In this document: positions 10,401-26,354 of the stretch, in pieces
Layout of the letters: each line of letters starts with the position of its first letter
How positions within the stretch are numbered: position 1 is the stretch's first letter
NCBI GenBank assembly: GCA_022648545.1
Contig: JALCMP010000015.1
Coordinates: 1-43,950 of the forward strand
DNA length: 43,950 nt
Direction: 5' to 3'
Source of the DNA: Bacteroidales bacterium
GTDB lineage: Bacteria; Bacteroidota; Bacteroidia; Bacteroidales; UBA932
Position numbers and translations under genes: made by a program
The notes under the pieces: generated by a model
Database searches by the model: none
What the model was told of the DNA's origin: nothing
Seen by the model: the letters and a program-made list of their open reading frames with translations, nothing else

Positions 10401-10791
10401 GTATAGGATTCCTTATTTTCCCCGAAACTACTATCTGAGACAATTCTTCAGACTTTTCCGAAAGTACCAGATTCTGTACGAAGTTTTCACCAAGACGGAG
10501 AACAGCTCCGCCTGCTTCAGCAGAACCATAACCGAGAAGAGTAACCTTTACGGTATAGGGACCGCCTACACGCATACCCGGAATACGATAGTTACCAGCC
10601 TTGTCGGTCTCCGAATAGTACTGTGTACCGGAAGGACCATGAGTCGCAATTACCGTCGCCCCTTCTACAGGAGCTCCTTTTGCGTCTTTTACCGTACCAC
10701 TCATAGATGACGTAGTAACCTGCGCAAACACCGCAACAGACAGCAATAAGCCGAATGTCGCCAGAAAGATTTGCTTAATAGTTTGTTTCAT
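7495..10791 (-). CDS. TonB-dependent outer membrane receptor, Oar-like
   Basis: I place the start at 10791, giving 1098 residues, because MKQTIKQIFLATFGLLLSVAVFAQ is a typical signal peptide. An in-frame ATG at 10926 would add 45 unlikely residues and run through the promoter. The order is signal peptide 1-24; a carboxypeptidase-regulatory-like domain 28-110 (SGTVKDAKGAPVEGATVIAT); a plug domain about 115-245 (LPTISRSITDFTRLTPQ, GVDGRMNSITIDGANFNNNFG); then a long beta barrel ending in the aromatic FKFIF. It resembles the Oar group, which often lacks a SusD partner, and none is next to it here. The substrate is unknown; candidates include peptides, metal chelates or glycans. It has its own probable promoter, 166 bp downstream of the S51 peptidase gene. 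Confidence 0.9.
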   Translation of the reverse strand: MKQTIKQIFLATFGLLLSVAVFAQVTTSSMSGTVKDAKGAPVEGATVIATHGPSGTQYYSETDKAGNYRIPGMRVGGPYTVKVTLLGYGSAEAGGAVLRLGENFVQNLVLSEKSEELSQIVVSGKIRNPILNSDKNGASTNVTERQINDLPTISRSITDFTRLTPQANGNSFAGVDGRMNSITIDGANFNNNFGLSSNLMPGGDAQPISLDAIQEINVNVAPFDIRQSQFTGAAISAITKSGTNEYKGSAYTFIRPKTFTGNKVGDLTVDGAHDSKSETYGFTFGGPIIKNKLFFFVSGEYGKTTSPSGAWKPSTDGIAHTETKTSRTSISDLKTMHDYLLSKYDYEAGDYQNFRNFTSDNHKILARIDWNINKYNKVTVRYNDMVGTSDNLASSSGPCYGSGRSSAKAVEFSNAWYGFKNTVRSLTGEWNATFSPKVNMRLLASYTATEDKRTSDSGLFPFVDIYKDNDRYMSFGYELFSHNNDVKNNTLSISDNVTFNLNRHTITVGVSYDNLYFKNSYMREGTSYYCYDSMEAFMNNETPSALALTYGYNGNEAPGVELTFGLGALYAQDEWQVNDKLKLTYGLRVERPFFLNDLDSNPAVDAYKFGGWDKGTSNILGKDAAEDDPYYIKSGSWPKAKLQFSPRLGFNWDVRGDRSLQVRGGTGLFSGLLPFVWFTNQPNGSGMIQSPETIIKDKTTLEGAGVKFTPDYHDLIKNYPTLFPTTPGKLPYGSNLAEVDKDFKMPQNWRTDLAVDIALPWNMVFTVEDIFTKNINAVTQKNVNLSYPDATFNGADDRPYWSSSSKINSNVGTAMVLTNTSKGFQNSLTFQLTKNMSNGLSGSFAYTYTVSKDVTANPGSSASSAWKYNVVRSYLNDPELSYSEFAVPSRFVGNLTYRINYAKHFASTFGLYFTASQQGRASFTYSNDLNGDGYTADLLYIPKSSDELTFTDYNGMTADQQAKIFWNYVNTNSYLSKHKGKYAARWGYVEPWHTRWDFKYVQDIFSNFGSARKYTLKISLDILNVGNLLNNKWGCYRDMGNLSYGNITPLRKDKIINGVPVYHLNAKSEEDFNNSFEWVRENKTSSTWGMLLGFKFIF

Positions 10792-10832
10792 AATGAATAG
10801 AATAAAGTTATTTATTTGGTTAAAATCAGGTG

Positions 10833-10865
10833 CAAAAATATATATTTTGAGAAAAGAACACCAAT
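10833..10865 (-). promoter_or_regulatory. Bacteroidota-type promoter for the TonB receptor
   Basis: Read on the minus strand, ATTG (10865-10862) is followed after 21 nt by TATTTTTG (10840-10833), which fits TTTG-N19-21-TAnnTTTG. Initiation would fall near 10826, giving a leader of about 35 nt before the ATG at 10791. This supports the shorter start. Confidence 0.55.
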
Positions 10866-10957
10866 AAAAGTATGAATAATTTGTTAAATAACTCCCTCCG
10901 ATTAAAAAATCATATGAATTTAACACAAAAAAAACAATAATCCTAAAATCATTTTCT

Positions 10958-12115
10958 TTATTCCTTTTCCGCCTTATTAAGCATCAAAACAGCTTTTTCC
11001 CTGAATGTGATTTCACTTTCCTTTAATGTCTTTCCCCCTATATCCTCCCCAACACTTACCCACTTGCCTTCTCTATTATAAAAATACCATAATCCGTATC
11101 CGAAAGAAGTTTTGTATGCATCGTTAACCACTCCTGCAATCTTATTATCGTAAACGAAAACTTTTTCCACACTTATATTCATTACCGAATTATATTCCTT
11201 TTCAGAAATATTCTGCCGGCCGAGACGAAATTTCTTAATTGCAGCTGCATATGCTTTTTCAGGAGAGGTATTTCCTTCGGGGTATAGCATTATGGATTTT
11301 ATTTTCTTTCCTACATTCCTGTATGTTAAATCTTTTTCAGACAAGGCATCATGTTTTAAAAGGAATTGGGAATGCATCTTTTTTTCGTATATCTTCCCTT
11401 TTCTGTTTTTCACAAACCACGTCCCCGAAAGATCGCTTATTGTTACAAAATCTACCGCCCTGCCGTTTTTGAATAATATGCCTGCTCCGGCATCACATGC
11501 AAAACCAGCATTACATTCTCCATTGGAAATCATCTTATGATAAAGATTTTTTCTCTCTATTTCGGAATAATGAGGGCAATTACTGTACGGGAGCAAGCCC
11601 AATCCTTTTACTAAACTCAGAGCGGACGGACGCGAATCGCTTATCCCGTTTTCGAACCAACAAATAGAACCGGCACTGCCCCCCGCCATAATAATACCTT
11701 TTTTCAAGGCTTTGCGCAGAATAGTATCTATTCCCTGATATTTCCATATCCCCAACATATTAAGAGTATTACCTCCTCCTACCACTATAGCGTCGGAATT
11801 CATTATTATATTTTCGAAAGAACGGTTGGTCCCGGAAGATGAAACCCAAACCTTCATAACATGTGGCTCTATACCTATTTTCTCACATATGGAATTATAA
11901 TATTTTATATTTTCAGAATTATCTGCGCTTGCGGTAGGGAAATAACACAGAACAGGATTTTCCTTGCCAGTAAGATCAGCTACATATTGTATGAATTTAA
12001 GATTTATATCACCGCCGAATACAAAAATTTTTTCTTCTTTCGGGCGTTCGACCGCAATGGCATTAAACAAGCAGCAAAATACCAGACAAAATGTACAAAA
12101 CAAGCCTTTTTTCAT
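10958..12115 (-). CDS. Exported S51-family peptidase (peptidase E / cyanophycinase-like)
   Basis: The 385-residue product has an N-terminal signal peptide (about residues 1-21). It has a class-I glutamine-amidotransferase-like fold typical of S51: IFVFGGD near 30-36, a GGGNT loop (113-117), and the nucleophile elbow GGSAGS at 145-150 with Ser147. Asp160 (ISDSRPSA) and His182 (CPHYSE) lie at spacings close to those of the PepE catalytic set. S51 enzymes cleave Asp-X dipeptides or cyanophycin-like substrates. A C-terminal extension of about 120 residues (from about 265) is not part of the usual domain. The gene begins 12 nt after the ABC ATPase stop, so it is probably the last gene of the efflux operon. 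It could alternatively be a general periplasmic dipeptidase that happens to be in that operon. Confidence 0.8.
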   Translation of the reverse strand: MKKGLFCTFCLVFCCLFNAIAVERPKEEKIFVFGGDINLKFIQYVADLTGKENPVLCYFPTASADNSENIKYYNSICEKIGIEPHVMKVWVSSSGTNRSFENIIMNSDAIVVGGGNTLNMLGIWKYQGIDTILRKALKKGIIMAGGSAGSICWFENGISDSRPSALSLVKGLGLLPYSNCPHYSEIERKNLYHKMISNGECNAGFACDAGAGILFKNGRAVDFVTISDLSGTWFVKNRKGKIYEKKMHSQFLLKHDALSEKDLTYRNVGKKIKSIMLYPEGNTSPEKAYAAAIKKFRLGRQNISEKEYNSVMNISVEKVFVYDNKIAGVVNDAYKTSFGYGLWYFYNREGKWVSVGEDIGGKTLKESEITFREKAVLMLNKAEKE

Positions 12116-12127
12116 AGCTATAATTAA

Positions 12128-12814
12128 TTAAAGCAAATTGTTAACATCTTCCACCAGTTTGCCGTCGAACAAATTAAGTATGCGACTTGCATATGAAGAA
12201 TCTCTTTGTGAATGGGTTACCATAACTATTGTGGTACCGGCATGATTCAATTCGGTAAGAAGTTCCATAACCTGCTTTCCGTTTGCGGAATCAAGATTGC
12301 CGGTAGGTTCGTCTGCAAGTATGAGCCTGGGTTCGTTTATTACGGCACGGGCTATGGCTACGCGCTGCTGCTGTCCGCCCGATAACTGCATGGGAAAATG
12401 TTTAGCCCTATGGCTCATATTCATACGCTTTAGTATTTCATCAACGCGCCTTTTGCGTTCGCCCGGTTTAACCCTGAGATATGTAAGAGGCAATTCCACG
12501 TTCTCATATACGTTAAGTTCATCTATGAGGTTGAAACTTTGAAAAACGAATCCTATCCTTCCCTTGCGGAACGACGTACGTTCTTTTTCTCTTAAGTTTC
12601 CGACATCTTTCCCAAGCAGGACGTAGCGGCCTTCGGTAGGATTATCAAGCAGCCCCAAAATATTCATAAGCGTACTTTTTCCGCACCCCGACGGTCCCAT
12701 TACCGCTACGAACTCTCCTTCTTCCACTTCAAATGACACTCCGTTAAGCGCAAGAGTTTCCACATCTTCAGTACGGAAGCTTTTCTTAATGTTTTCTATT
12801 TTTAATATAGACAT
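12128..12814 (-). CDS. ABC transporter ATPase, MacB/LolD type
   Basis: The product has 228 residues, normal for the LolD/MacB ATPase group. Visible motifs are Walker [10 protein letters not shown] (about residues 40-48), the Q-loop in FVFQSFNLI, the signature [14 protein letters not shown], Walker [13 protein letters not shown] and the switch histidine in MVTHS. It would energise the permease encoded just upstream (18-nt gap). Together with the HlyD-like adaptor and TolC it would form a tripartite, mechanotransmission-type efflux or envelope-remodelling pump. The substrate is not indicated. It is the fourth gene of the minus-strand operon. Confidence 0.95.
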
Positions 12815-12832
12815 GATTTTTATTATTTTTTA

Positions 12833-15196
12833 TTAATTATTTCTTATAGTATCCGCGGGATTGGAATTAACCGTCCCGATAGTTGCAATATATTCCGCAG
12901 CATAAATTAGAATCAGCACAACCGCAGCTGAAATAAGAAATATCCACCATCCGGTATTTATCTTGTTCGTAAAATTCTCAAGGAATTTTGCGATCAGGAA
13001 GTAACCAGCCGCCAGTCCGGCAACGACCGCCGGAATGGTTATCATGGTAATATCTCGTAATAACAGACTTATGATGTCTGCAGGACCGGCGCCGTTGACC
13101 TTGCGGATAGCTATTTCACGGCTTCTTCCCCGTATTTCGTCATTTATATACCCGAGCAACCCCATAAGGGTAAGCAAAACGACTATGATGCACACCAGAT
13201 AAAACAAATTCCGGTATCTGGAGATGTCCTGCAGATTATCCGTCACGGTATCGTCAAGAACGCCGATATGATACCCGTCATAGGATTTGTAATTCTTCAA
13301 AAGCTCCCTTATAGACGATATTGTTCCCGAATCCATACGGCGGAGCCTTATGAGACATAACATCTCCATTCCTTTTTTTATTCCCCGCAAGCTCTTTCCT
13401 TCCGAATTCATATAAAATTCCTTAAAATTATGAAAAACCGCCGGCAGGTATATGCCGTCCACAACTCTTATATTGCTTACCACTCCCGCTATTGTATATA
13501 CTCTTTCACCGGGGTACGAGGAATCCGTTATTATATGTCCGGCCGCCTGCTGTGGTGTCCATCCGCGCATATCTGCATATTTTTTATTAACAAGAACATG
13601 AAGGACATCACCGTCGAACCGAATATTCTTCCCGGCAAGCATTTTAAGGCCAAGAACATCAACATAATTATCATCTATCAATTCATACCTGGACGAGAAC
13701 AGCATTTTATGCGTATTCTCATCGTAACACGGCTGACCGCTCCATCCCTGCAGTGGACTGTTTTCGCACCATCCAGCCCCGGCCACATTCGGAATTTTTT
13801 TTATTTCCTCCATCAACGTTCTCGAATTCCAAGGATTTACGACCACTCTGGCCATAACAATATTATGGTGGTCGAAACCAATATCTCCGTATTTCATGGA
13901 TCTGAATTGCAGAACGGAAACGATAAGCATAAGGAATGTTATCGTAGTACAAATTATCTGAACGAAAAGCAATGCTTTTTTCCATTTATTATTATGCTCG
14001 CGCATCCCGCGGAATGCCGCCTGCAGGGAAACACCGGAAAACAATCTGGCCGGTATAAGACCTCCGGCAAGAAACGCTAAGGAGATTACGGCCACTGGTA
14101 TCCATATGCTTTTTAAGGAAAACAGTTCGGATGCAGTAAATTTGCTTATATAACGAACCTGATCCTGCTGCATAAAAATGAACATAAAAGCAAGAGCCAT
14201 GGAAATAAGGAGCAAAATAAAAGTCTCGTATAAAAAGATTGAAAAGATATCAGATTTCCTTGCTCCGCTGCACCTGAGCATGGCGATGGTCTTGCTCCTT
14301 TTCATCATTGAAGAGATGGAAATAAGTACATAATTGAAACATGCAACAAGCAGCGTAAGCAATCCCATGGCAAGAAGGACGGACATAAGTGATTTACGGG
14401 ACGCGGTTATGTTAACCTTGCCAACCGGAACGAAAACAATTTTCATCTTGAATTCATTAAGCTCGCGGTCGATTCCGTATTTTTTTTCAATCTCAGGCAA
14501 CTGCTTTTCCACATCTTTTATAGATGACCCGCGGGCAATCTTTATATACGCGGGAAAAGAATCGCCTCCGAACCATCCGGTATAAATATTTCCGGTATTC
14601 TTCTCAAAGGGAACTATTATATCAAATTTACCTATATGACAGTTGGAAGGGATATCTTCGAATATTCCGGCAACGGTAAAGGCCTTGCCCTGACCGTCCT
14701 TTACAACCTTCCCCATTGGATCGCCGTCTCCGAACATTTTCGACAAGGCGGATCTGCTTATCATTATATTATCCGGAGCGGCAAGGACCGAATGCGGATC
14801 GCCCTTTATAATATTAAAACCAAAGACATCAAAAAAAGAAGTATCGGCAAGAAGAACATTGAAGGTGTACACATTCTCTCCGTATTTTATATAATCGTCG
14901 GAAGGACCGAGAAACCTTGTTCCCGAAGAAACCTGGGGAAAGTCTTTTGCCAGAGCCGGAGCAAGCGGTGCATTTGTCTGAGACGACATGCCTTCGAATC
15001 CTTTTGCCGATGAAGAATAATATATCTTGTAAATTCTGTCGGCGTCGGGATAGAACTTGTCGAAGGAAAATTCGTAATTGACATATGAAAAAACCAGAAG
15101 CCCCGCCAGCAGTCCCAGAGTAAGTGATATTATCCTCGTAGCATTATTGCCGCGCCCCTTTAAAATATAGCGCAGCGCATACATAAAATTATTCAT
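12833..15196 (-). CDS. FtsX/MacB-type ABC permease, duplicated permease domain
   Basis: The 787-residue inner-membrane protein has two tandem MacB-like halves. The first starts with a transmembrane helix (about 22-42), a large periplasmic domain, then helices after the FtsX-like segment RSKTIAMLRCSGARKSDIF. The second starts with KKALLFVQIICTTITFLMLIVSVLQF, another periplasmic domain, and ends with RSREIAIRKVNGAGPADII and further helices. This double form is common in Bacteroidota, where one gene supplies the transmembrane part of what is a homodimer in MacB. It lies 3 nt after the adaptor stop and 18 nt before the ATPase. The predicted role is to couple cytoplasmic ATP hydrolysis to periplasmic conformational change during export through TolC. 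Confidence 0.9.
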   Translation of the reverse strand: MNNFMYALRYILKGRGNNATRIISLTLGLLAGLLVFSYVNYEFSFDKFYPDADRIYKIYYSSSAKGFEGMSSQTNAPLAPALAKDFPQVSSGTRFLGPSDDYIKYGENVYTFNVLLADTSFFDVFGFNIIKGDPHSVLAAPDNIMISRSALSKMFGDGDPMGKVVKDGQGKAFTVAGIFEDIPSNCHIGKFDIIVPFEKNTGNIYTGWFGGDSFPAYIKIARGSSIKDVEKQLPEIEKKYGIDRELNEFKMKIVFVPVGKVNITASRKSLMSVLLAMGLLTLLVACFNYVLISISSMMKRSKTIAMLRCSGARKSDIFSIFLYETFILLLISMALAFMFIFMQQDQVRYISKFTASELFSLKSIWIPVAVISLAFLAGGLIPARLFSGVSLQAAFRGMREHNNKWKKALLFVQIICTTITFLMLIVSVLQFRSMKYGDIGFDHHNIVMARVVVNPWNSRTLMEEIKKIPNVAGAGWCENSPLQGWSGQPCYDENTHKMLFSSRYELIDDNYVDVLGLKMLAGKNIRFDGDVLHVLVNKKYADMRGWTPQQAAGHIITDSSYPGERVYTIAGVVSNIRVVDGIYLPAVFHNFKEFYMNSEGKSLRGIKKGMEMLCLIRLRRMDSGTISSIRELLKNYKSYDGYHIGVLDDTVTDNLQDISRYRNLFYLVCIIVVLLTLMGLLGYINDEIRGRSREIAIRKVNGAGPADIISLLLRDITMITIPAVVAGLAAGYFLIAKFLENFTNKINTGWWIFLISAAVVLILIYAAEYIATIGTVNSNPADTIRNN

Positions 15197-15199
15197 AAC

Positions 15200-16462
15200 C
15201 TATTTATTTAATATTAGAACTTCGTTATTCCCAAAACTTTCATAAGACGACACTATAACCTTCTCCCCTGAATCCAGTCCGCCAGAAACCTCATAATATG
15301 ATGGATTTTGCCTGCCTATGCTTATATTGCGCCGGAAAGCGCGCCTCTCCTTTTCGTTTATTACGAAAATCCATTTCCCTCCCGTGGAATGGTAAAATTC
15401 CCCGACCGGCACCATAACGGCTTTCTTGCTCTGTCCCAGCTGCAAATTAAGATAATATGTTTGTCCCGTTCTTATATTGACGGGATACTTGCCTTTAAAT
15501 TTAAGATCCGCTCTAAACTTGCCATCCTTCACATCGGGATAAACCTTGCATACATAAGCGTCATATGTAATACCCGCCCTTTCCAAAGTTGCCCGGAGCC
15601 CCGTTTTAACTCTGTCTATATAATATTCGTCAACATCGGCTTCAATTATGTAACTCGACAGATCGTTTATCCGACCTATTCCCTGTCCTGGTAAAAGGGA
15701 CTGCCCTAGCTCTATATCAAGACTGCCTACTTCCCCGCTTATGGGAGATTTAACTACAAGGTTACCTACTCTGCGTCTTATAAGCTGCATATTGCGCTTC
15801 ATGTTATTAAGACTTTCTTCCATCTGGTCCATCTGAACCTTGCGGTAAACGGAATCCTGATTCTGCCTTTCCACAATAAGGCCCTGTCTGTTTAATGCAA
15901 GCTGATAATCCTCACGCGACTGAAGCATTATCTCGCGGGATATGAGGCCGTCGCCGTAAAGAGATTTGTTCTGCATGTAAGTCCTTTTCTTCCTCTTGAG
16001 ATCCATATCGAGCTGAAGTCTGTCCTGTTTAATAGAAAGACGCTCTTGTTCCATAGTAACCTGAGTATTGCGCAGGAAATTTTGTTTTTCAGCCAGTTCG
16101 GCCTCCGCATTCAATATGGAAAGGTCAAGGGTATTGTTTCCGAGTATTATAAGAGGGTCACCTTTTTTCACCATCGTTCCCTCTTCGGCTATCTTTTCCT
16201 TTACCACTCCTCCTTCCAGCGGGCTGATCTGTACGGCAGAAGCCGGTTCCACCTTTCCGCGGACGGTCATGTAATCCACAAAGTCTCCGTACGATGCCGT
16301 TGCCACTGCCAGATTTTTCTCGTCTACCCGCAATTCGGAATCATGATTCTTAAAAATCATCCATATCACAAGGCAAAGCAGAACCGCAGCACCGAAATAC
16401 GGTATATTCTTTTCCCTGAATATTTTTTTCACGCCCTTCGGCTTTTCCAATTTTATATCCAT
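15200..16462 (-). CDS. HlyD/MacA-type periplasmic adaptor protein
   Basis: I chose the start at 16462 (420 residues, MDIKLEKPKGVKK). It is preceded by a purine-rich AAGGAAA stretch and avoids overlap with the tolC end, whereas an upstream ATG at 16552 would overlap it. The chain has one N-terminal transmembrane helix (YFGAAVLLCLVIWMIF) and a lipoyl-like half (ISPLEGGVVKEKIAEEGTMVKKGD). A long alpha hairpin with heptad character follows (about 115-235), then the second lipoyl half (KSPISGEVGSLDIELGQSL) and beta-barrel and membrane-proximal domains. It would bridge the MacB-like permease and TolC. Its position between tolC and the permease gene fits that role. Confidence 0.93.
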   Translation of the reverse strand: MDIKLEKPKGVKKIFREKNIPYFGAAVLLCLVIWMIFKNHDSELRVDEKNLAVATASYGDFVDYMTVRGKVEPASAVQISPLEGGVVKEKIAEEGTMVKKGDPLIILGNNTLDLSILNAEAELAEKQNFLRNTQVTMEQERLSIKQDRLQLDMDLKRKKRTYMQNKSLYGDGLISREIMLQSREDYQLALNRQGLIVERQNQDSVYRKVQMDQMEESLNNMKRNMQLIRRRVGNLVVKSPISGEVGSLDIELGQSLLPGQGIGRINDLSSYIIEADVDEYYIDRVKTGLRATLERAGITYDAYVCKVYPDVKDGKFRADLKFKGKYPVNIRTGQTYYLNLQLGQSKKAVMVPVGEFYHSTGGKWIFVINEKERRAFRRNISIGRQNPSYYEVSGGLDSGEKVIVSSYESFGNNEVLILNK

Positions 16463-16506
16463 ATTCTCAGTTTCCTTTACGATATTACTTATTTCCCGTC
16501 GATTTC

Positions 16507-17862
16507 TTATTTTACAAGAGGGGTGCCTCCGTAATAACTTACCAGCCTGCATCGTTCTGCATATTGGAGTTCCGCCTTAAGCCTGTCGGCCCCGGCCTTA
16601 AGCAGATTATCCGAAGCCGTTCTCAGATCTATGGAACTTACGAGACCTTTTTCAAATTGTCCGGCTGCAAGTTCGAAAGCCTCCCTGGCAGACTCTTCTT
16701 TTTTTAATGCGCTCATATATTCTTCGGCATAACCGTTGCGTTCCATTATGGCCCTGCGTACTTCCGTATTGAGTTCCTGCCGGGTTCTCATACGTTCCTG
16801 CATAGATATTTTAAGGGAATTACGAGCCTGTACGGCATTCTTCCTGTACGAAAGACCCCCAAAAAGCGGTATGCTCAGAGAGAACTCCCAATAATATCTC
16901 CTGTGTTCCCTGAACTGCGTTTTAAAAGGAAGATGGATCTTGCCGTCGTTAAGATTCTTATAATAATTAGTGGAATAACCTCCGTATAAATAAAGCGAAG
17001 GAGCCATTCCCCCTTTTGCAACCCGGAGGTTCATACGTTCGTTCTCAACGGCATAACCGGCAGCCAATATCCCCGGATTATTTTTCATTGCATAATCCAG
17101 TATTGCATATACCGAAACCTTTTTCGTCCTTAAATCGGCCGCATATAAAGTATCAACCACAAGAGTATCGTCTTGCGGATAATTCATTTTTTCCTTAAGA
17201 TGCAGCAGGGCAAGATCCCTGAAATTTTCTTGCTGAACCAACAAAAGTTCCCCTGCCGCAACCTGCGACTGCATCTGCGCAACATCGGCTCTGCTCGCAA
17301 TTCCAAGATCAAACTGTTTTTTACTTTTAAACAAAAGCTTTTGCGACGTTCCAAGCTGACGGCCTGCGATAACAGCACTTTTGGAATAATACACCACATC
17401 GAAATAAGCCTGCATAACTGCAATCGCCGTTTCATCCTTTACCTTTTGCAGTACGGCCTCGCCCGAAAGGCACATGTAACGGGCCGCCCTTATACCGTTT
17501 ATATGCCGAAACCCGCAGAAAAGAGGCATCGACGACGAGGCCGAATATTCGTTGGAAAAATGTCCTGTATTCGAATAAGTGTTGGTGGAAGGGTCTATGG
17601 TCCGTCCATATGAAGATCCCGCCGTAACAGATAAGGAAGCAGATGGAAGTAAAGCGGCAACAGCCGCCTTTTTGTTTATCCGGTAATCGTCGTTGGTATA
17701 TTTCCGCTTGTTTATATCAGTATTGTGCCTTACCGCATAACTCATGCAATCGTCCAGACTAAAAATCCTGCCACCGCCCTCCGTCATGGCCTCGGCCTGA
17801 TTGCAGATAAACAGCAACAAAAGGATAACGTCCAAAAGAAATATGTAAAATACGTTTTTCAT
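16507..17862 (-). CDS. TolC-family outer membrane efflux protein
   Basis: The product has about 451 residues with a signal peptide (MKNVFYIFLLDVILLLLFICNQAEA), then two OEP repeats with long helices. FSLDDCMSYAVRHNTDI opens the first, and YAMKNNPGILAAGYAVENERMNLR marks the second. I prefer the ATG at 17862 over the one at 17871. The sigma-54 promoter just upstream predicts a transcript start near 17875, leaving only 4 nt before the earlier ATG but 13 nt before this one. It is the first gene of the operon tolC-hlyD-permease-ATPase-S51 peptidase and would form the trimeric exit duct. Confidence 0.9.
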   Translation of the reverse strand: MKNVFYIFLLDVILLLLFICNQAEAMTEGGGRIFSLDDCMSYAVRHNTDINKRKYTNDDYRINKKAAVAALLPSASLSVTAGSSYGRTIDPSTNTYSNTGHFSNEYSASSSMPLFCGFRHINGIRAARYMCLSGEAVLQKVKDETAIAVMQAYFDVVYYSKSAVIAGRQLGTSQKLLFKSKKQFDLGIASRADVAQMQSQVAAGELLLVQQENFRDLALLHLKEKMNYPQDDTLVVDTLYAADLRTKKVSVYAILDYAMKNNPGILAAGYAVENERMNLRVAKGGMAPSLYLYGGYSTNYYKNLNDGKIHLPFKTQFREHRRYYWEFSLSIPLFGGLSYRKNAVQARNSLKISMQERMRTRQELNTEVRRAIMERNGYAEEYMSALKKEESAREAFELAAGQFEKGLVSSIDLRTASDNLLKAGADRLKAELQYAERCRLVSYYGGTPLVK

Positions 17863-17885
17863 TTTTCCCATTTGCCATTCTTATA

Positions 17886-17902
17886 AGCAGGGGCCGTGCC
17901 AT
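17886..17902 (-). promoter_or_regulatory. Sigma-54 (-24/-12) promoter of the efflux operon
   Basis: Read on the minus strand the site is ATGGCACGGCCCCTGCT. The consensus as I know it is YTGGCACGrnnnTTGCW. The invariant GG and GC doublets are present with exactly 10 nt between them, and only the first base and one T of the -12 element deviate. Transcription would start near 17875, just before tolC. The divergent gene encodes a sigma-54 activator, which strengthens the call. Confidence 0.85.
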
Positions 17903-17964
17903 AAATATATGTGTTTGATAATATGATTTTTACAAAAGAAAGACTATATTTATATGTATGATTA

Positions 17965-17982
17965 TTTTACATATGTGTAAAA
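17965..17982. promoter_or_regulatory. Candidate upstream activator site (dyad) for the sigma-54 activator
   Basis: TTTTACA-TATG-TGTAAAA is an 18-bp near-perfect dyad. Its centre is about 98 nt upstream of the predicted tolC start, within the usual range for enhancer sites of NtrC-type activators. It lies 51 nt before the regulator's own start codon, so it could also serve autoregulation. Binding itself is inferred. Confidence 0.6.
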
Positions 17983-18032
17983 ATAACAACCGGATTTCCA
18001 ATATTTGCCGTAGATATGATTTACATTTGATA

Positions 18033-19391
18033 ATGAATAAGAAAGGAACCATACTCGTAGTAGACGACAAAAAGGCCGTCCTCTCGGCTCTCAAATTATT
18101 ACTCGGGAATTATTTCGAAACTATAATATTATCCGAACATCCCGACAGAATCCCTGCAATATTAAAAAATAACGACGTTGACGTAGTACTCCTCGACATG
18201 AACTTCAGGGCAATGGTGAATACCGGCAACGAAGGTCTTTTCTGGCTCGGCGAAATAAAAAAAGCCGACGCAGACATACAGGTCGTAGTATTTACCGCCT
18301 ATGCCGATATAGACCTTGCAGTAGAAGCCATAAAGCGCGGTGCATCCGACTTCGTAGTTAAACCGTGGGACAACGGGAAACTGGTTGCATCGATGCTGCA
18401 TGCCTTTCAGATAAGGAAATCAGGACGCGACATGGAAAGGCTCAGGGAGATGAAAGAAGGACTTATGGATGAAAAAAGAATGTATTGGGGGACCGGAACC
18501 ATAATGACTCGTCTTCACGAAATAATAAAGAAAGTTTCCTCAACGGACGCCAATATCCTCATTACCGGAGAAAACGGAACCGGCAAGGAAATGCTTGCAA
18601 GAGAAATACATCTTCTCTCCGAACGAAGGAAAGAGTTGTTCGTAAGCGTTGATATGGGAGCAATAAGCGAAACCCTTTTCGAAAGTGAACTCTTCGGACA
18701 CGTAAAGGGTGCCTTTACCGATGCCGTAAACGACAGGGCCGGAAAATTTGAAATAGCGGACGGCGGAACCTTGTTCCTCGACGAAATAGCCAATCTTCCT
18801 TATCATCTTCAAGCCAAATTACTTACCGTAATACAAAGCAGACGTATAGTTAGAGTAGGAAGCAACAGGCCGGTGGATACAAACGTAAGACTCATATGCG
18901 CAACCAACAGGGATCTGGAGAAAATGGTAGCCGACGGAAATTTCCGCGAAGACCTTTTTTATCGGATAAATACTATCCGCACAGAATTGCCGCCGCTCCG
19001 TAAACGTATAGAAGATATAATACCGCTTGCACAAATGTTCCTCGCTTCATACTCCTCCAGATACGGCAAAAAAATAAACGGTTTTTCGGAACAGGCGAGC
19101 AACAATCTTAAAAAGCATCCCTGGCCGGGAAACATAAGGGAACTTCAGCATACAATAGAAAAAGCCGTAATAATGTGCGACGGCAAGATTATAATGCCGC
19201 AGGATCTGCTTCTCGACAAACCGAGGAACAAGACCATTTATAATAAAGGTCCCGTCACTCTGGAAGAAATGGAAAAGGGAACTATCAAAGAGGCCGTACA
19301 AAGAAACGAAGGGAACATGTCCGCCGTTGCAAAAGAACTCGGAATAACACGACAGACCCTTTATAATAAGATAAAACGTTACGAATTATGA
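18033..19391 (+). CDS. NtrC-family sigma-54-dependent response regulator
   Basis: The start at 18033 gives 452 residues and begins MNKKGTILVVDDKKAV; a longer in-frame start at 17958 would add 25 residues ahead of the receiver domain. The receiver has acidic D11/D12, phosphoacceptor D55 (VVLLDMNF) and K110. The AAA+ domain has Walker A GENGTGKE at 179-186, the sigma-54 contact loop GAFTDA at 226-231 (a natural variant of GAFTGA) and Walker B TLFLDEI at 246-252. An arginine-finger region follows. A Fis-type helix-turn-helix ends the protein (GNMSAVAKELGITRQTLYNKI). It overlaps the kinase gene by 4 nt. The divergent efflux operon with a sigma-54 promoter is its probable target. A TACATTTG box ends 3 nt before the ATG. 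Confidence 0.95.
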   Translation: MNKKGTILVVDDKKAVLSALKLLLGNYFETIILSEHPDRIPAILKNNDVDVVLLDMNFRAMVNTGNEGLFWLGEIKKADADIQVVVFTAYADIDLAVEAIKRGASDFVVKPWDNGKLVASMLHAFQIRKSGRDMERLREMKEGLMDEKRMYWGTGTIMTRLHEIIKKVSSTDANILITGENGTGKEMLAREIHLLSERRKELFVSVDMGAISETLFESELFGHVKGAFTDAVNDRAGKFEIADGGTLFLDEIANLPYHLQAKLLTVIQSRRIVRVGSNRPVDTNVRLICATNRDLEKMVADGNFREDLFYRINTIRTELPPLRKRIEDIIPLAQMFLASYSSRYGKKINGFSEQASNNLKKHPWPGNIRELQHTIEKAVIMCDGKIIMPQDLLLDKPRNKTIYNKGPVTLEEMEKGTIKEAVQRNEGNMSAVAKELGITRQTLYNKIKRYEL

Positions 19392-20707
19392 AAATAAGCG
19401 ATACACGCACAGGACAGCTTCTCGCCGTCGTCCTTATAATAATCTTTACGGCGCTATCCGCAACAAGCATATGTTTAGGCAGATACGTCCATCTAGTCAT
19501 ATATATACCCGTTTTATCGTACGTAGTATTTTACACCTTGAGGCTATTCGGAAGAACGGCACGCAAGGTCGCCTTTATGTTCGATGCCATAGATTGCGAC
19601 GATTACTCCTTCAGATTTTCAGGAAAATCCGAAAGCATGAACGAAAAGCTTCTTGACAAATCCCTCAACCGAATAAAAGAAATCCTCGGCAACGTAAGGA
19701 AAAGGGAGGCGGACAAGGAAAAATATTACGGCCGCATATTGGACAGCGTCCGGACGGGAATAATAGTAATGGAAGATAACGGAAACGTCCGGCAGACTAA
19801 TAACGAATCCGAACGCATGCTGGGACTGGAAGTTATAACCAACATAAATCAGATTATGCACATTGCACCTGCCGCAGGGAAAGCCATAAAAGAAATAAAT
19901 CCGGGGGAATCCCTAAAGGCCGATATCACAAATGAACTTGGGACAAACGAAATATCGCTTGCGGCATCCGACGTGGAATATGACGGCAAGAGATTAAAGA
20001 TCATCTCCATAAACGATATAAACAAGGCCATGAATGAAAAGGAAGTGGAATCATGGATAAAACTCACGAGGATCCTTACACATGAAATAATGAATTCGCT
20101 TGCTCCGATTACATCGTTAAGCGAGACTCTTATTAATATTCCGCGGAACGATCCTTCCCTGCATGAAGGACTGGAAACCATATATAAAACAAGCCGAAAC
20201 CTCATCTCTTTCGTAGAATCATATCGCAAATTCACAAGAATACAACCTCCGGTAAAAAAGCCGTTCGATTTAAAGCCGGTTATAGAAAACACTGCGGGAC
20301 TTGTATTACAGGAAATCAACGATTCTTCAATAACCGTTAATACGAAAGTTTCCCCTGCCGGACTTATGGCGTACGGAGACGAGGCACTTATATCACAAGT
20401 GCTGGTAAATCTTATAAAGAATGCGGCCCAGGCTCTTGAAGACGCACCTGCAGATAAAGAAAAAACTATATCGGTTCTTGCAGGAACGGATTCCGATGAA
20501 AATGTATTCATACGTATAGGAAACACCGGCAATGCCATTCCGAAAGACATTGCCGAAAATATTTTCACACCGTTCTTTACCACCCGGGAAAAAGGTTCAG
20601 GCGTAGGGTTAAGCATTTCGCGCCAGATAATGCTGCTTCACCGCGGCTCCCTGCGGCTTACATCCAACCGCAGCGGAAACGTTGAATTTACCGTCACGTT
20701 TCCGTAA
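19388..20707 (+). CDS. NtrY-like membrane sensor histidine kinase
   Basis: The 439-residue protein has two N-terminal transmembrane helices (about 9-30 and 34-54) with almost no periplasmic loop, so it probably senses within or near the membrane. A linker with a PAS-like domain (about 112-215) follows. The dimerisation and phosphoacceptor motif LTHEIMNSLAPI carries His232. The catalytic domain has the N box (VLVNLIKNAAQAL) and FFTTREKGSGVGLSISRQIM. In the G1 box the usual Asp is Asn (IGNTGNAIP); related Bacteroidota kinases that I recall also vary here. Its ATG overlaps the regulator's TGA, so the two are translationally coupled and should form one two-component system for the adjacent pump. 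Confidence 0.93.
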   Translation: MKISDTRTGQLLAVVLIIIFTALSATSICLGRYVHLVIYIPVLSYVVFYTLRLFGRTARKVAFMFDAIDCDDYSFRFSGKSESMNEKLLDKSLNRIKEILGNVRKREADKEKYYGRILDSVRTGIIVMEDNGNVRQTNNESERMLGLEVITNINQIMHIAPAAGKAIKEINPGESLKADITNELGTNEISLAASDVEYDGKRLKIISINDINKAMNEKEVESWIKLTRILTHEIMNSLAPITSLSETLINIPRNDPSLHEGLETIYKTSRNLISFVESYRKFTRIQPPVKKPFDLKPVIENTAGLVLQEINDSSITVNTKVSPAGLMAYGDEALISQVLVNLIKNAAQALEDAPADKEKTISVLAGTDSDENVFIRIGNTGNAIPKDIAENIFTPFFTTREKGSGVGLSISRQIMLLHRGSLRLTSNRSGNVEFTVTFP

Positions 20708-20750
20708 TTTTTGGGGAGGAGGAAAGCCGGCACACGGCAAAACTATTTAA

Positions 20751-22373
20751 CTATTTATCGGTGACTTCCGTTATCGGACTGCCTATGCATCCGTCAGGCA
20801 TCTGTATATGCAGCAGCGCTGCAAGAGTTGCCGATATATCGGTCATATAAACCGTTTTATGAGTGCATCCGTGTCTTATATTCCATCCCATAAAAATGAG
20901 AGGGATATGCGTATCGTACGGATTCCATACTCCGTGTGACGTCCCCGTTTTGTAGTACGAAGGGAGCCATCCCGGCATTGGTATTATTTGTATGCTTCCG
21001 CTGCGCAAATGGTTGTATCCGTTTATCATCATTTCTTTCAGCGGCATGGGAATGGAGGCTTCCGATATTTTATCCTGATCTACTACATATTGTACGCCCT
21101 TTTGCTTTTGAAGAAAGGCAACGGCTTCTTTTCTTATCTGCTCTGAATTCAGATGAAGACTATCCATGCGTGCGGTATTAAGGGTTATCTGGAAATCGTT
21201 CATTCCGAGCACCAGAAGGGCTGCGCCGTATTTCCCTTTAAGAAATTCATTTAGCTTGGAAGGGATATCGTCATCCACGAGTCCCGAAGGCATTTTGGAA
21301 GCTTTCATAAATCCTTCGGCATGAGCAGCCCCGTGATCCGCCGTAAGGAAAAGCAGGTAATTTCCTTTGCCTGCTTTTTTGTCGAGAAAGGAAAAGAAGG
21401 AGGCGAGATCCCTGTCAAGACGAATGTAGAGGTCTTCTATTTCTACGGCATTTATTCCTGTAAGATGTCCGCAGTAATCGGTTGATGCGCAATTGATAGT
21501 AAGGAAATCGGTGGAGTTCCCTTCTCCCAGTCCGTATCCTTCTACGGCCGCTTTCGCAAACCAGAGGGTAAGCGTATTTCCGAACGGGGTCTGCCTGAAC
21601 GAAGAATGGTCGATGGCGTAGCTTTTCTTAAGGTCATACGGAAATACGGGATTTTCCGCCCCTTTGAGCGTCCCCTCCCACGGCTCGTCGTCGTCAGTAC
21701 TTTCCGTATAATCCTTAGGGGAAAGAGCCGTATGCCAGCCTCCTGCAATCAGTTTTTCTATATTGCCCGCATTGTTGAAGTTTTTTACCCATTGCGGAAG
21801 ATCATTCATATAATAGCTGCTAGTTACAAAATGTCCGGATTCATCGTCGAGCCAGAATGCGGCGGTCGGGTTGTGTCCGGCAGGAAGTATTGCGGCCCTG
21901 TCCTTTAGCGATATTCCAACTACGCGCGATTTAAAGTTGGTGGCAAGACGCAGCTCGTCCGTTATTGTGGTGGCGAGAAGGTTGCGGGGCGACATTTTTC
22001 CCGATTTATTATTCGTCCCCGTTCCGTGTACGGTTGCATCGTAAGTGCAATATACCGACTTGCCGGCCTTGTGGTCGTACCAGTTGTTTCCGGCAATTCC
22101 GTTTATAGAGGGAACAGACCCGGTGAATATTACAGAATGCCCTACCGCGGTTACCGAAGGAATGTAATTTATCATGGTGTTTTCGCACGAGAAACCCTCA
22201 TTCAAAAGCCTGCGGAATCCGCCTTCGCCGTATTTGTCATAAAATCTGTAAAGATAGTCCCAGCGCATCTGGTCTATTACTATACCTACGACCAAACGGG
22301 GACGAAGCTGCTGCGCGGCTCCGTTGAATACAATTGCCAGCATTGCGGCCAAAATCAAAATACTTTTTTTCAT
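20751..22373 (-). CDS. pafA: PafA-type alkaline phosphatase (phosphodiesterase superfamily)
   Basis: The start at 22373 gives 540 residues with signal peptide MKKSILILAAMLAIVFNGAAQ; an upstream ATG at 22457 would put 28 residues ahead of it. The motifs match the phosphate-irrepressible periplasmic phosphatase PafA: metal ligand D34 (GIVIDQMRWDY), nucleophile T75 (PSVTAVGHS), N96 (GIAGNNW), K157 and R159 (SLKDRAAILPAGH), each 4-5 residues before its PafA counterpart (D38, T79, N100, K162, R164). LTADHGAAH supplies further metal ligands. The enzyme would hydrolyse a wide range of phosphate monoesters in the periplasm. It is convergent with the kinase gene (43-nt gap, no strong terminator) and divergent from metK. 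Confidence 0.9.
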   Translation of the reverse strand: MKKSILILAAMLAIVFNGAAQQLRPRLVVGIVIDQMRWDYLYRFYDKYGEGGFRRLLNEGFSCENTMINYIPSVTAVGHSVIFTGSVPSINGIAGNNWYDHKAGKSVYCTYDATVHGTGTNNKSGKMSPRNLLATTITDELRLATNFKSRVVGISLKDRAAILPAGHNPTAAFWLDDESGHFVTSSYYMNDLPQWVKNFNNAGNIEKLIAGGWHTALSPKDYTESTDDDEPWEGTLKGAENPVFPYDLKKSYAIDHSSFRQTPFGNTLTLWFAKAAVEGYGLGEGNSTDFLTINCASTDYCGHLTGINAVEIEDLYIRLDRDLASFFSFLDKKAGKGNYLLFLTADHGAAHAEGFMKASKMPSGLVDDDIPSKLNEFLKGKYGAALLVLGMNDFQITLNTARMDSLHLNSEQIRKEAVAFLQKQKGVQYVVDQDKISEASIPMPLKEMMINGYNHLRSGSIQIIPMPGWLPSYYKTGTSHGVWNPYDTHIPLIFMGWNIRHGCTHKTVYMTDISATLAALLHIQMPDGCIGSPITEVTDK

Positions 22374-22403
22374 GTTTTTATTAATGTCTGTCCGGTTTTT
22401 CTT

Positions 22404-22411
22404 CAAATGTA
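22404..22411 (-). promoter_or_regulatory. -7 box of the pafA promoter
   Basis: On the minus strand this reads TACATTTG, matching TAnnTTTG. Initiation would be near 22397, 24 nt before the pafA ATG. No clear TTTG is seen about 20 nt upstream, so the match is partial. Confidence 0.4.
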
Positions 22412-22478
22412 ATTGAAAAACGCGCCCTGCATTCCGGCTTAAAATAAACTTTACCATATGTTTATACTAATTTAATAT

Positions 22479-22508
22479 TTTGCATTCCGATTAAAATTAT
22501 TATATTTG
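22479..22508 (+). promoter_or_regulatory. Promoter of metK
   Basis: TTTG at 22479-22482 and TATATTTG at 22501-22508 are separated by 18 nt, matching the Bacteroidota housekeeping promoter. Initiation near 22515 would place the whole riboswitch in the 5' leader. Confidence 0.65.
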
Positions 22509-22524
22509 CCGCTGTTATAGTTTT

Positions 22525-22575
22525 AGTGGAAAGATTTGTATCTGCTTGCAACCACATTAAAAAATGCTAAAAAGA
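22525..22575 (+). promoter_or_regulatory. SAM-II-class riboswitch in the metK leader
   Basis: P1 is GTGG (22526-22529) with CCAC (22552-22555). The loop holds GATTT (22533-22537) and TTGCAA (22546-22551). The 3' strand carries the conserved GCTAAAAAG (22566-22574). Aligned by eye to SAM-II examples I remember, a pseudoknot forms: G48-C67 and C49-G66 (last two digits of position), T46-A70, T43-A73, C42-G74 and T41-A75, with the two U positions expected at the ligand site preserved (T47, T68). The gene it precedes makes S-adenosylmethionine, so feedback repression is expected. The pairing is my reconstruction; SAM-V, which shares this core, is an alternative label. Confidence 0.82.
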
Positions 22576-22606
22576 ATCTATCGGGTTCACCGATTTCCTT
22601 TTTATC
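22569..22606 (+). terminator. Probable attenuator downstream of the SAM riboswitch
   Basis: ATCGG (22580-22584) pairs with CCGAT (22590-22594), followed by TTCCTTTTT: a short intrinsic terminator. Alternatively AAAAAG (22569-22574), part of the aptamer's 3' strand, pairs with CTTTTT (22598-22603), and AATC (22575-22578) with GATT (22592-22595), which would break the terminator. The two folds are mutually exclusive, so bound ligand would favour termination. An 8-bp AT-only hairpin (22641-22648 with 22652-22659) lies just before the metK ATG. Confidence 0.55.
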
Positions 22607-22664
22607 AATAACGGACAACACGGATCGAATCTTTTCGCTGAATAATTTAAAAAATTATTTAGTC

Positions 22665-23918
22665 ATGTCATATTTATTTACATCAGAATCGGTCTCCGAG
22701 GGACATCCCGATAAGGTTGCCGATCAGATTTCGGATGCGGTACTCGACGAATTTCTCCGTCAGGATCCCAACGCAAAAGTAGCCTGCGAAACTTTCTTGA
22801 GCACCGGACTGGTTGTCGTAGGAGGCGAAGTTAAATCTACCGCCTACGTGGATATTCAGGAAACCGCCCGCAAAGTCATAAATGAAATAGGTTATACAAG
22901 GGCGGAATATATGTTCGACGGTAATTCTTGCGGCATACTTTCGGCAATACACAGCCAGTCGCCCGACATAAACAGGGGCGTGGAAGTTTCCGACAGGGAC
23001 GAACAGGGTGCAGGCGACCAGGGAATGATGTTCGGCTATGCATGCCGCGATACCCCCGATTACATGCCCCTGCCAATATACCTTTCGAACCTTATGCTTA
23101 CGGAACTTGCGGACATAAGAAAAAACTCTTCGCTCATGCCTTATCTCCGTCCGGATGCCAAATCGCAGTTTACCATAGAATATTCGGACGACAGAAAACC
23201 GCTTCGCATACATACCATAGTACTTTCAACTCAGCACGACGAGTTCGACGGCGACGCAGCCATGCAGAAGAAGATAACGGAAGACACAAGGAACATATTA
23301 ATTCCAAGGATGATAAGCAAGCTTCCCGACGGACTCGGAGCATTGTTCGACGATAATTATATTTTATACGTCAACCCTACGGGCAAATTCGTAATCGGAG
23401 GGCCGCACGGCGATACCGGTCTTACCGGACGCAAGATAATAGTAGATACATACGGAGGCATGTGCCCTCACGGAGGAGGTGCGTTTTCGGGCAAAGATGC
23501 CAGTAAGGTAGATCGTTCGGCTACATATGCCGCAAGATATATAGCAAAGAATCTTGTTGCCGCAGGAATTGCAGATGAAATAATAATACAACTTTCATAT
23601 GCCATAGGAGTTGCAAAACCTCTCAGCATTTATGCAGATACCAGAGGGACCTCAAATGTAAATATTCCGGATGGTGAGATCGCTAAAAAAATAGGCGAAA
23701 TATTTGATCTGCGACCGGCGAAGATCATAGAAAAATTCGGACTGGAGAATCCTATTTTCCTTCCTACGGCAGCTTACGGCCACTTTGGCAGAAAACCTTA
23801 CGAGAAAGAAATAGACATAACGGACAACGGCCTTGAAAAGAAAAAGAAAGTATGTTTCTTCGGTTGGGAAAATCTTGATTCCGTATCAAAAATAAAAGAA
23901 GCTTTCGGAGTGAAATAA
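22665..23918 (+). CDS. metK: S-adenosylmethionine synthetase
   Basis: The 417-residue enzyme starts at [21 protein letters not shown]. Earlier in-frame codons from 22536 would translate the riboswitch, so 22665 is the start. The family signatures are complete: GHPDK near the N terminus, [12 protein letters not shown], the substrate loop [21 protein letters not shown], and GGGAFSGKD with KVDRSA after it. It makes S-adenosylmethionine from methionine and ATP in the cytosol. It is monocistronic in effect, with its own promoter, SAM-II-type leader and a strong terminator 23 nt after the stop. Confidence 0.98.
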
Positions 23919-23941
23919 TTTTTACATTTTTTCAATGCAGG

Positions 23942-23985
23942 ATTCCGCCTTCCGGTTAATTTTACATTTCGGAAGGCGGAATTTT
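23942..23985 (+). terminator. Strong intrinsic terminator after metK
   Basis: A perfect 13-bp stem, 23942-23954 (ATTCCGCCTTCCG) with 23970-23982 (CGGAAGGCGGAAT), has a 15-nt loop and TTTT at 23982-23985. The comF start codon follows immediately at 23986. Confidence 0.9.
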
Positions 23986-24777
23986 ATGTTGGGAATGATA
24001 ATTATAAAACGGACTTTATTCGCATTAAAAGCTCTCGAGGATTTTATTTTGCCGCGGTCGTGCAGGGTCTGCGGAAAGAATCTTATGGTTTTTGAGAAGC
24101 ACATCTGTCTGGAATGCCTTGCCGATTTCCCTTTTACCGGATATTGGCGACTTGCTGAAAGTCCCGCCGACGATATTTTTGCAGGACGGGTGAAGCTGGA
24201 GAAAGTACATAGCCTGTTCTTCTACTCCGGAGCCTATAAGAAGCTAATTTATGCCGTAAAATATAAATCGGACATAGGATTGGGTAAATTTCTCGGCAGA
24301 ATGCTGGGTAAAAGCATAATGGAATTTTATTCAAATCCCGATAATAAAATCGGTTTCCCGGATTATATAGTCCCAGTACCGCTGCATTTTATGAAAAAGT
24401 TAAAAAGAGGCTACAATCAATCGGAAGTAATAGCCGAAGGAATATCTCAGGTTACGGGCATAAAAATAGAGAAACGTCTTCTCAAAAGGCGCCGCTATAC
24501 TAAAACTCAAACGAGAAAGGACAGGACTGAAAGATGGCTGAACGTAAAAAAGGCATTCCGCCTTACAAGATACGGTGCCGAATTTTCAGCACGTTTGTTC
24601 GGGCAGGACATGAGTCAGACCGCAGGCGCTGGGAAAAAGCCCGATAGCCCGACCGTACATTTCCTTGTAGTGGACGACGTCCTTACCACCGGAGCAACTC
24701 TGGAAGTCTGCTGCTCCATTCTCAGGGATAATTTCGATTGTCCGGTAAGCGCAGCCACGGTTGCATTCGTGGAATAA
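23986..24777 (+). CDS. comF: ComF-family phosphoribosyltransferase-like protein
   Basis: The product has 263 residues from the ATG at 23986 (an ATG at 23995 is also possible). An N-terminal zinc-finger-like pair of Cys motifs (CRVCGK and CLEC) lies around residues 25-45. Next come the ComF segment KLKRGYNQSEVIAEGIS and the type-I phosphoribosyltransferase PRPP loop VVDDVLTTGATL near the C terminus. ComF is needed for DNA uptake in competent bacteria, apparently at the inner membrane with the ComEC system; its exact role outside those species is uncertain. The start codon touches the metK terminator and no separate promoter was seen, so expression may depend on read-through. Confidence 0.92.
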   Translation: MLGMIIIKRTLFALKALEDFILPRSCRVCGKNLMVFEKHICLECLADFPFTGYWRLAESPADDIFAGRVKLEKVHSLFFYSGAYKKLIYAVKYKSDIGLGKFLGRMLGKSIMEFYSNPDNKIGFPDYIVPVPLHFMKKLKRGYNQSEVIAEGISQVTGIKIEKRLLKRRRYTKTQTRKDRTERWLNVKKAFRLTRYGAEFSARLFGQDMSQTAGAGKKPDSPTVHFLVVDDVLTTGATLEVCCSILRDNFDCPVSAATVAFVE

Positions 24778-24819
24778 TTTTGGATATTTTAATTATCTTT
24801 GATAACGTATTTTCTTTTT

Positions 24820-25602
24820 ATGCTGGATTTTATTGACATAAGGTTCGTTGATCTGATAGATATTGCGCTGGTTGCATTGTTGATCTACCAGATATACAGA
24901 ATAATAAAGGGTACTGCTGCTCTGGGCATATTCTTGGGCATAATATTCCTGTATGTTGTCTGGCTGGTAGTCAAGGCCCTCGACATGAAGTTGCTTTCCA
25001 CTATTCTGGGACAGATACTCGGCGTAGGACTTCTGGCTCTTATCATACTTTTTCAGCAGGAGATAAGAAGATTCCTGCTGCGTCTCGGATCCACCTATGT
25101 AAACAATTCGCACTCCACAAAATTCATAAAAAAGATTTTCGGATACAGGAACCATTCCGTGCCGCTGGAAACTTTGGATGAGGTCACACAGGCATGCAGG
25201 AGAATGAGCGAAACGCATACCGGAGCACTTATAGTTCTGGCCCACGTCTCTTCACTTAATTTTGTGGTCGAAACCGGCGATGTCATAAATGCTAAAGTCA
25301 ACAGGCGACTTTTAGAAAATATATTTTTTAAGAACGCTCCGCTTCACGACGGTGCGATAGTTCTCTCGGCTAATAAAATAGTAGCTGCGCGCTGTACGCT
25401 TCCCATATCGGAAACGCCCAATATTCCTCCCCGCTACGGAATGAGACACAAGGCAGCAATAGGTCTTACGGAGGAAACCGACGCTTCTGTTATTGTGGTA
25501 TCTGAGGAAACCGGAGAGATTTCTTTCGTTCAGGACGGAAAGATAGAGACCATGAACAGCATAAGCGAACTGCGCCTCAGAATAGAAGGATCGTTCAAAT
25601 AA
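24820..25602 (+). CDS. cdaA: Diadenylate cyclase CdaA (c-di-AMP synthase)
   Basis: I use the ATG at 24820 (260 residues); a TTG at 24799 lies inside a likely -7 box (TATCTTTG, 24794-24801). Three N-terminal transmembrane helices (about residues 14-30, 34-53 and 62-78) precede the DAC domain, the CdaA layout. Active-site motifs are DGA (residues 177-179, LHDGAIV) and RYGMRHKAAIG, where the usual RHR triad reads RHK (209-211). The enzyme joins two ATP into the second messenger c-di-AMP, which controls potassium and osmolyte balance and envelope homeostasis. It is not next to glmM or a CdaR gene here. It converges on plsY with 6 nt between stops. Confidence 0.93.
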   Translation: MLDFIDIRFVDLIDIALVALLIYQIYRIIKGTAALGIFLGIIFLYVVWLVVKALDMKLLSTILGQILGVGLLALIILFQQEIRRFLLRLGSTYVNNSHSTKFIKKIFGYRNHSVPLETLDEVTQACRRMSETHTGALIVLAHVSSLNFVVETGDVINAKVNRRLLENIFFKNAPLHDGAIVLSANKIVAARCTLPISETPNIPPRYGMRHKAAIGLTEETDASVIVVSEETGEISFVQDGKIETMNSISELRLRIEGSFK

Positions 25603-25608
25603 TCAGAT

Positions 25609-26283: not shown

Positions 26284-26293
26284 TTTTCGTTCG

Positions 26294-26326: not shown

Positions 26327-26354
26327 CATTGATTTTTAAAAGAATTATTTCCTT

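Follow-up and report, generated by a model that had tools for sequence, protein, structure and literature searches.

The question raised by this locus is what switches on a predicted export pump whose genes diverge from those of a response regulator (RR) and a sensor kinase. Within the window (the whole stretch of 43,950 nucleotides that was analysed), the leftward pump operon and the rightward regulatory genes are separated by an intergenic region of 161 bp. We consider it highly probable, from comparison of DNA sequences, that the locus forms a dedicated sigma-54 circuit, in which the RR acts from paired upstream sites on a sigma-54 promoter of the divergent pump; the prediction that the local sigma-54 activator and its kinase drive this operon is strongly supported. 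The genes concerned are the following.

10958..12115, minus strand: peptidase S51, cyanophycinase/PepE-like (Pfam; below the equivalog cut-offs)
12128..12814, minus strand: ABC ATPase, DarD/LolD/MacB-like (ABC_tran; Pfam and NCBIfam)
12833..15196, minus strand: duplicated MacB_PCD/FtsX permease, ADOP-like (Pfam and NCBIfam)
15200..16552, minus strand: HlyD/RND-type periplasmic adaptor (Pfam; above the RND_mfp cut-off)
16507..17871, minus strand: TolC-family outer membrane channel, opening gene of the pump operon (Pfam OEP)
18033..19391, plus strand: response regulator/sigma-54 activator with receiver, AAA+ domain and Fis-type HTH (Pfam)
19388..20707, plus strand: sensor kinase with TM hairpin, long helix, PAS-like fold, HisKA-like domain and HATPase (Pfam, hydropathy, AlphaFold2)

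One apparent operon therefore encodes a channel, an adaptor, an FtsX/MacB permease and an ATPase, recognised by Pfam as OEP, HlyD, MacB_PCD/FtsX and ABC_tran, as expected of the tripartite ABC pump named in the first-pass annotation; the divergent sigma-54 activator and kinase that it had described are likewise backed by Pfam. The listed ORF of the adaptor overlaps tolC and its true start is probably further in, while translation of tolC may alternatively begin at an internal ATG (codon 4). The S51 peptidase gene, 12 bp downstream of the ATPase gene (ORF spacing), is probably the final gene of the operon, and its presence there may hint at a peptide-like cargo. A gene for a TonB-dependent receptor (7495-10926, minus strand) probably begins in reality close to 10791, about 166 bp beyond the S51 gene, and is likely to be a transcription unit of its own.

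The intergenic region contains a candidate sigma-54 promoter and, upstream of it, the elements listed below.

17887..17902, minus strand: putative sigma-54 promoter TGGCACGGCCCCTGCT (sequence; conserved in relatives)
17955..17971, minus strand: proximal putative activator site TGTAAAATAATCATACA, a 17-bp dyad TGT-N11-ACA (21-bp register of relatives)
17976..17992, minus strand: distal putative activator site CGGTTGTTATTTTTACA, degenerate (position set by the 21-bp register of relatives)
17965..17982, no strand assigned: dyad TTTTACA-TATG-TGTAAAA of the first-pass annotation, composed of the facing halves of both 17-bp sites (sequence)

The predicted promoter matches the sigma-54 consensus almost completely (28.5 of 29 with hand-set weights). 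The invariant GG and GC claimed for it at first reading are exact at 17902-17887 of the minus strand, with the -24 GG at 17901-17900 and the -12 GC at 17889-17888; the box ends 15 bp ahead of the tolC ORF start (17871), and the pump transcript is expected to begin near 17876, 12 nt beyond the GC. The spacing of GG and GC, the presence of rpoN and the adjoining gene of a PF00158 activator are all in keeping with a sigma-54 promoter. The genome (2.37 Mb in 56 contigs, 85% complete) has one Sigma54_DBD match (rpoN, E 5e-54) and eight matches to PF00158, of which four are strong (E <= 3.5e-67). The bare motif TGGCACN6TGC occurs in it 6 times, as does a reversed control pattern, and the credibility of TGGCACGGCCCCTGCT therefore comes from position and conservation and not from rarity. 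Sigma-54-like words on the plus strand, such as CGGCATAGCGCATGCA, were considered as a second conserved site and rejected, being located inside tolC, where they encode C-M-x-Y-A codons. Inspection of the sequence revealed no convincing sigma-70 or Bacteroides-type element for the RR gene.

The upstream elements were interpreted with the aid of relatives, whose pump promoters carry two tandem 17-bp palindromes (TGTC-N9-GACA or TGTAAA-N5-TTTACA) placed 21 bp apart, centre to centre. In most cases the proximal centre is 62-66 bp and the distal one 83-87 bp ahead of the -24 T. Of 44 matches (43 distinct promoters), selected by their TGTC/GACA letters with the offset constrained only to 60-77, 42 have the start of the proximal site 70-73 bp from this T. 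In the window the two sites are separated by TATG and score 12/14 (proximal) and 8/14 (distal); CGGTTGTTATTTTTACA has kept its inner half, toward the proximal site, and its outer half is degraded. Seven relatives (L062, L068-L070, L117, L120 and L123) have solitary 17-bp sites near -118 to -137. These solitary sites, together with TGTAAA-N5-TTTACA ahead of pump genes in the same genus, favour the 17-bp palindrome as the unit. In the genome of origin, one site plus promoter was found once, at the window locus, although further targets may have been missed since the assembly is incomplete.

For comparison, we took 80 named loci with a relative of the RR and searched 60 related genomes. Among 110 RR loci, 34, the window included, lie within 700 bp of a divergent gene recognised as part of a pump; the remaining 76 show different arrangements or lie on short contigs. 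A composite site (dyads plus sigma-54 box) scoring at least 48 was present in 28 of the 34 divergent regions and in none of 680 dinucleotide shuffles, compared with 30 regions and 2 shuffles at a score line of 42, and 23 regions and no shuffles at 50; the scoring weights and the lines were chosen by hand once the dyads of the relatives were known. The window scores 48.5, just above 48 and below 50. Six regions fell below 48 (L025, L037, L044, L048, L050 and L122): in L050 a miscalled start had cut the region, and the site is present in the search for dyad pairs, whereas L037 and L122 have a 22-bp spacing between sites.

The same composite site separated RR loci with and without pump genes. Of the 68 named loci (out of 80) at least 10 kb long, it was found in 40 of the 41 with a pump gene and in none of the 27 without (reversed control 0/68), the sole exception with a pump gene being L086, where only the ATPase matched. 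All of these loci were picked by their RR, and this test thus ties the site to the pump and not to the RR. Dyad pairs sought without the sigma-54 condition were less specific (98 matches versus 9 in reversed sequence, each pair being counted on both strands). The first-pass annotation had suggested a search of related genomes for promoter and dyad; the promoter recurs there, with paired 17-bp sites in place of the dyad it had named. At the level of the letters, these comparisons demonstrate the predicted promoter, the paired sites, their spacing and their link with pump operons.

The RR itself carries the motifs of a sigma-54 activator of the NtrC superfamily, also demonstrable in its predicted product: a receiver phospho-Asp, Walker A and B, a GAFTGA-type loop, here GAFTDA, and a Fis-type HTH. 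In the 129 aligned rows (some loci are included twice), the receiver motif LLDMNF and the DE of Walker B are each kept in 127, and the loop that contacts sigma-54 is GAFTDA in 94 rows and GSFTDA in 29, the variant of GAFTGA usual in this family. The assignment as an NtrC/NtrY pair stands for the superfamily and fails for orthology, the scores being far under the NCBIfam equivalog cut-offs (NtrC 329.9 bits against 558.6; NtrX 284.9 against 600). The nearest kin of the window RR is a Rikenellaceae copy (L050, 64% identity) according to a quick FastTree tree of 127 rows, which has long branches and was relied on for this placement alone; the counterparts in the same genus are about 47-56% identical and stand in other gene arrangements. 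In L163, L171 and L172, for example, the RR and kinase genes close a tolC-hlyD-ATPase-permease operon, and TGTC...GACA sites with a weaker TGGCAC/T box lie upstream.

Many relatives that carry the site share the recognition helix of the window RR, TRQTLYNK. Changed helices were found in three loci that failed the site test, namely L044 (GRQTLYRK), L048 (TRASLYRR) and L025 (ARQTLYNK, one letter off); L037, with an unchanged helix, yet failed the test because of its 22-bp spacing. In L141 and L142, the helix NRSTLYEK accompanies a different palindrome, TGTCGGAAAAACCGACA or close to it. This parallel between helix and site is suggestive of binding of the RR to the sites, and the site specificity of the RR may be readable from its recognition helix, as L141 and L142 illustrate.

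Since none of the 27 pumpless RR loci had a composite site, targets were predicted elsewhere in their genomes. We searched 14 hand-chosen genomes of these 27, and 10 contained the composite site at another location (14 sites; control 0). Behind 13 of the 14 sites, the longest of the ORFs that begin no more than 350 bp away encodes TolC, permease or ATPase; at the remaining site the locus runs out after about 285 bp, probably because the contig ends there. The genome search found no composite site in the other 4 of the 14. Pump operons controlled in trans are predicted, among others, in the gut commensals Phocaeicola vulgatus and Parabacteroides distasonis.

A two-site search of the order that was not tied to RR loci covered 295 genomes, of which 24 had a match (49 matches in all, and 3 control matches); the genome of origin escaped this pattern because its distal site is too decayed. 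Of 30 matches examined as loci, 21 precede TolC or a permease, and nine have neither behind the site, some being plainly chance occurrences. An RR match (E <= 1e-100) was present in all 17 genomes that hold the 21 pump-linked loci, versus 153 of 295 overall, and in 22 of the 24 site-bearing genomes (in the exceptions, G065 and G254, the site is not followed by a pump). Of the 153 RR-holding genomes, 131 showed no site by this strict pattern; together with the 4 of 14 above, this indicates that other or weaker sites must be in use in many relatives. In the same genus 15 of 39 genomes gave a match (own included; 2 control matches), and 12 of the 16 loci besides the window precede TolC or a permease, with the 17-bp register TGTAAA-N5-TTTACA.

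These data bear on three other ways of reading the intergenic region. The first-pass annotation placed the RR on the single dyad TTTTACA-TATG-TGTAAAA, whose letters are indeed present, with perfect 7-bp arms, at 17965-17982, and which is more symmetric in the window than the distal 17-bp site. The relatives show this register to be wrong and replace it by two tandem sites: tandem palindromes always yield an inner dyad of this kind, and both the solitary 17-bp sites of seven relatives and the 12 pump promoters of the same genus are in the 17-bp register. The 7-bp dyad by itself is chance-level, as 153 of 500 sequences drawn from a first-order Markov model of the 161-bp region held a perfect dyad (arms of at least 7 bp, spacer 0-10), and we regard binding to it alone as improbable. 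It is even harder to believe that the sigma-54-like letters are fortuitous, that a housekeeping promoter drives the pump and that the palindromes are repressor operators; this is extremely unlikely. The lack of enrichment of the bare motif (6 versus 6) would agree with it, but the spacing from the dyads to the -24/-12 box is near-fixed across families, no shuffle of 680 reached 48, and the gene of an AAA+ activator adjoins.

A further reading leaves promoter and sites intact and assigns them to another sigma-54 activator of the genome, which the neighbouring pair merely adjoins. Candidates exist among the eight PF00158 matches, including an RR paralogue (40% identical) with its own kinase on contig C31, and the loci of at least 10 kb, having been picked by RR, speak only for the link between site and pump. 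Against this stand the genomes with pump-linked sites, all 17 of which have the RR family (roughly half do overall, 153/295), the missing pump behind the site in the two site-bearing genomes that lack the RR, and the altered helices, which go with a failed test (L044, L048, L025) or another palindrome (L141, L142). We judge control by such an activator to be very improbable.

For the preferred reading, control by the local RR through paired sites, the following course of events may be proposed. The kinase (19388-20707) would phosphorylate the RR (18033-19391), and the phosphorylated RR would assemble on the pair of 17-bp sites, whose centres lie roughly 87 and 108 bp ahead of the expected start; their 21-bp distance would correspond to two helical turns. 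The AAA+ domain could then remodel the sigma-54 polymerase held at TGGCACGGCCCCTGCT, and activation of this polymerase would turn on the tolC-hlyD-permease-ATPase(-S51 peptidase) genes. We infer from association and a few HTH differences that the RR is the protein that binds the sites; its activation by phosphorylation, and the sensing by the kinase of a signal within or beside the membrane, are likewise proposed.

The claim that the kinase has almost no periplasmic loop was supported. Among 111 kinase ORFs (the window being counted twice, and some ORFs being cut or misread), hydropathy analysis placed two hydrophobic segments at the N terminus of 79, a single one in 25, three in 2 and none in the remaining 5; in the 81 kinases with at least two segments, the gap between them has a median length of 5 residues and varies from 1 to 20. 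The AlphaFold2 model of the window kinase (mean pLDDT 85.4, pTM 0.48) has two helices (7-30 and 36-69) connected by a turn of 5 residues, followed by a helix and a PAS-like mixed fold (124-210) ahead of the kinase core. Both analyses therefore point to a kinase without an outside sensor domain. Pfam recognised PAS in 16 of 35 aligned kinases, the window kinase not being among them. NtrY-type kinases have a large periplasmic sensor domain; the window kinase has none, its best NCBIfam model is AtoS (128.4 against a cut-off of 646), and no NtrY model appears among the best 25 of 68 NCBIfam matches. The signal may come from the membrane, from a partner such as the permease, or from the cytoplasm. 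The first-pass terms “envelope-stress or export switch” and “membrane-derived signal” both stay interpretations, because the model also has a PAS-like fold in the portion expected to be cytoplasmic.

The locus shares parts with several known systems. Bce transporters have an FtsX-family permease, and Bce regulators are OmpR-type proteins of Gram-positives. Bce-type modules join an intramembrane-sensing kinase to an ABC transporter (PMC10314905; PMC3023708), and here a kinase with a tiny turn is encoded next to an FtsX-family ABC transporter. The likeness is one of gene content, and the window differs in that its regulator is a sigma-54 activator, not OmpR-type, and its pump is tripartite, with TolC and HlyD. 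It is a tentative, rather doubtful idea that the FtsX-family permease and the kinase without an outside domain report pump load to the sigma-54 activator, as a Gram-negative counterpart of Bce modules.

MacAB-TolC and the darobactin exporter DarBCD have the MacB_PCD/FtsX permease, HlyD-type adaptor and TolC in common with the window pump, whose ATPase is separate from the permease, whereas in MacB the two are fused. The best NCBIfam models are DarC for the adaptor and DarD for the ATPase, with DarB second for the permease, all below cut-off (191.6/450, 286.8/375 and 84.4/700), and no darobactin-type precursor or maturase is apparent among the listed ORFs of 8000-28000. The GlrR/QseF-GlrK/QseE system of Enterobacteriaceae likewise has an RR that is a sigma-54 activator with several TGTC...GACA upstream sites, and its kinase is envelope-linked. 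The QseF consensus is TGTCN10GACA, with a spacer of 10 in place of the 9 of window-type sites, and its target is the sRNA gene glmY with its operon, not a pump (PMC8745638). By this spacer and by its score (295.6 against a cut-off of 763 for the NCBIfam GlrR model), the window RR is not GlrR/QseF.

Sigma-54-type promoters have been mapped in Flavobacterium psychrophilum, where they are tied to envelope stress and gliding genes (PMC9723704), and a 2025 promoter-matrix survey placed predicted sigma-54 promoters ahead of genes for FtsX-like ABC permeases (COG0577), in Bacteroidia as well as in other classes, and called this the first evidence (PMC12316311). The survey shares transporter class, sigma factor and bacterial class with the window; in the parts of it considered here, the permeases are given neither an activator nor an enhancer, and relative to those parts the present analysis adds the regulator, the paired sites, their spacing and the prediction of trans targets. 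It was the only directly relevant item on sigma-54 and FtsX pumps among the open-access matches listed. The parts considered of PMC12669032, PMC10197588 and PMC10434189 do not describe the pump circuit, the main text of PMC3162934 has no word starting with “bacteroid”, and no printed form of the 9-base-spacer motif was found in the open-access literature. The kind of circuit is therefore known, and its enhancer code is, as far as that literature shows, newly read.

Sigma-54 targets are less explored outside Pseudomonadota (PMC12316311), and the code described here can be read from DNA: a regulator, paired 17-bp sites, a 21-bp pitch and about 71 bp to the -24 box. With this code, a set of anonymous FtsX/TolC pumps becomes a single regulon that can be tested, and the search for the signal gains a direct handle. 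Should the Bce-like reading be true, the activator would multiply pump operons through a single enhancer code, and one regulator would master an FtsX-pump regulon in multi-pump Bacteroidales such as G141.

The genome G141 has nine composite sites; in its stretches L161 and L162, four sites lie directly ahead of permease genes and one at an ATPase ORF start. This distribution suggests that a single regulator may run many pumps in this genome. A strong composite site was also observed in L158 (contig C6 of G237, around position 101504) before the gene of a 302-aa protein with a signal-peptide-like start, which matches no pump subunit of the window and is a possible non-pump member of the regulon.
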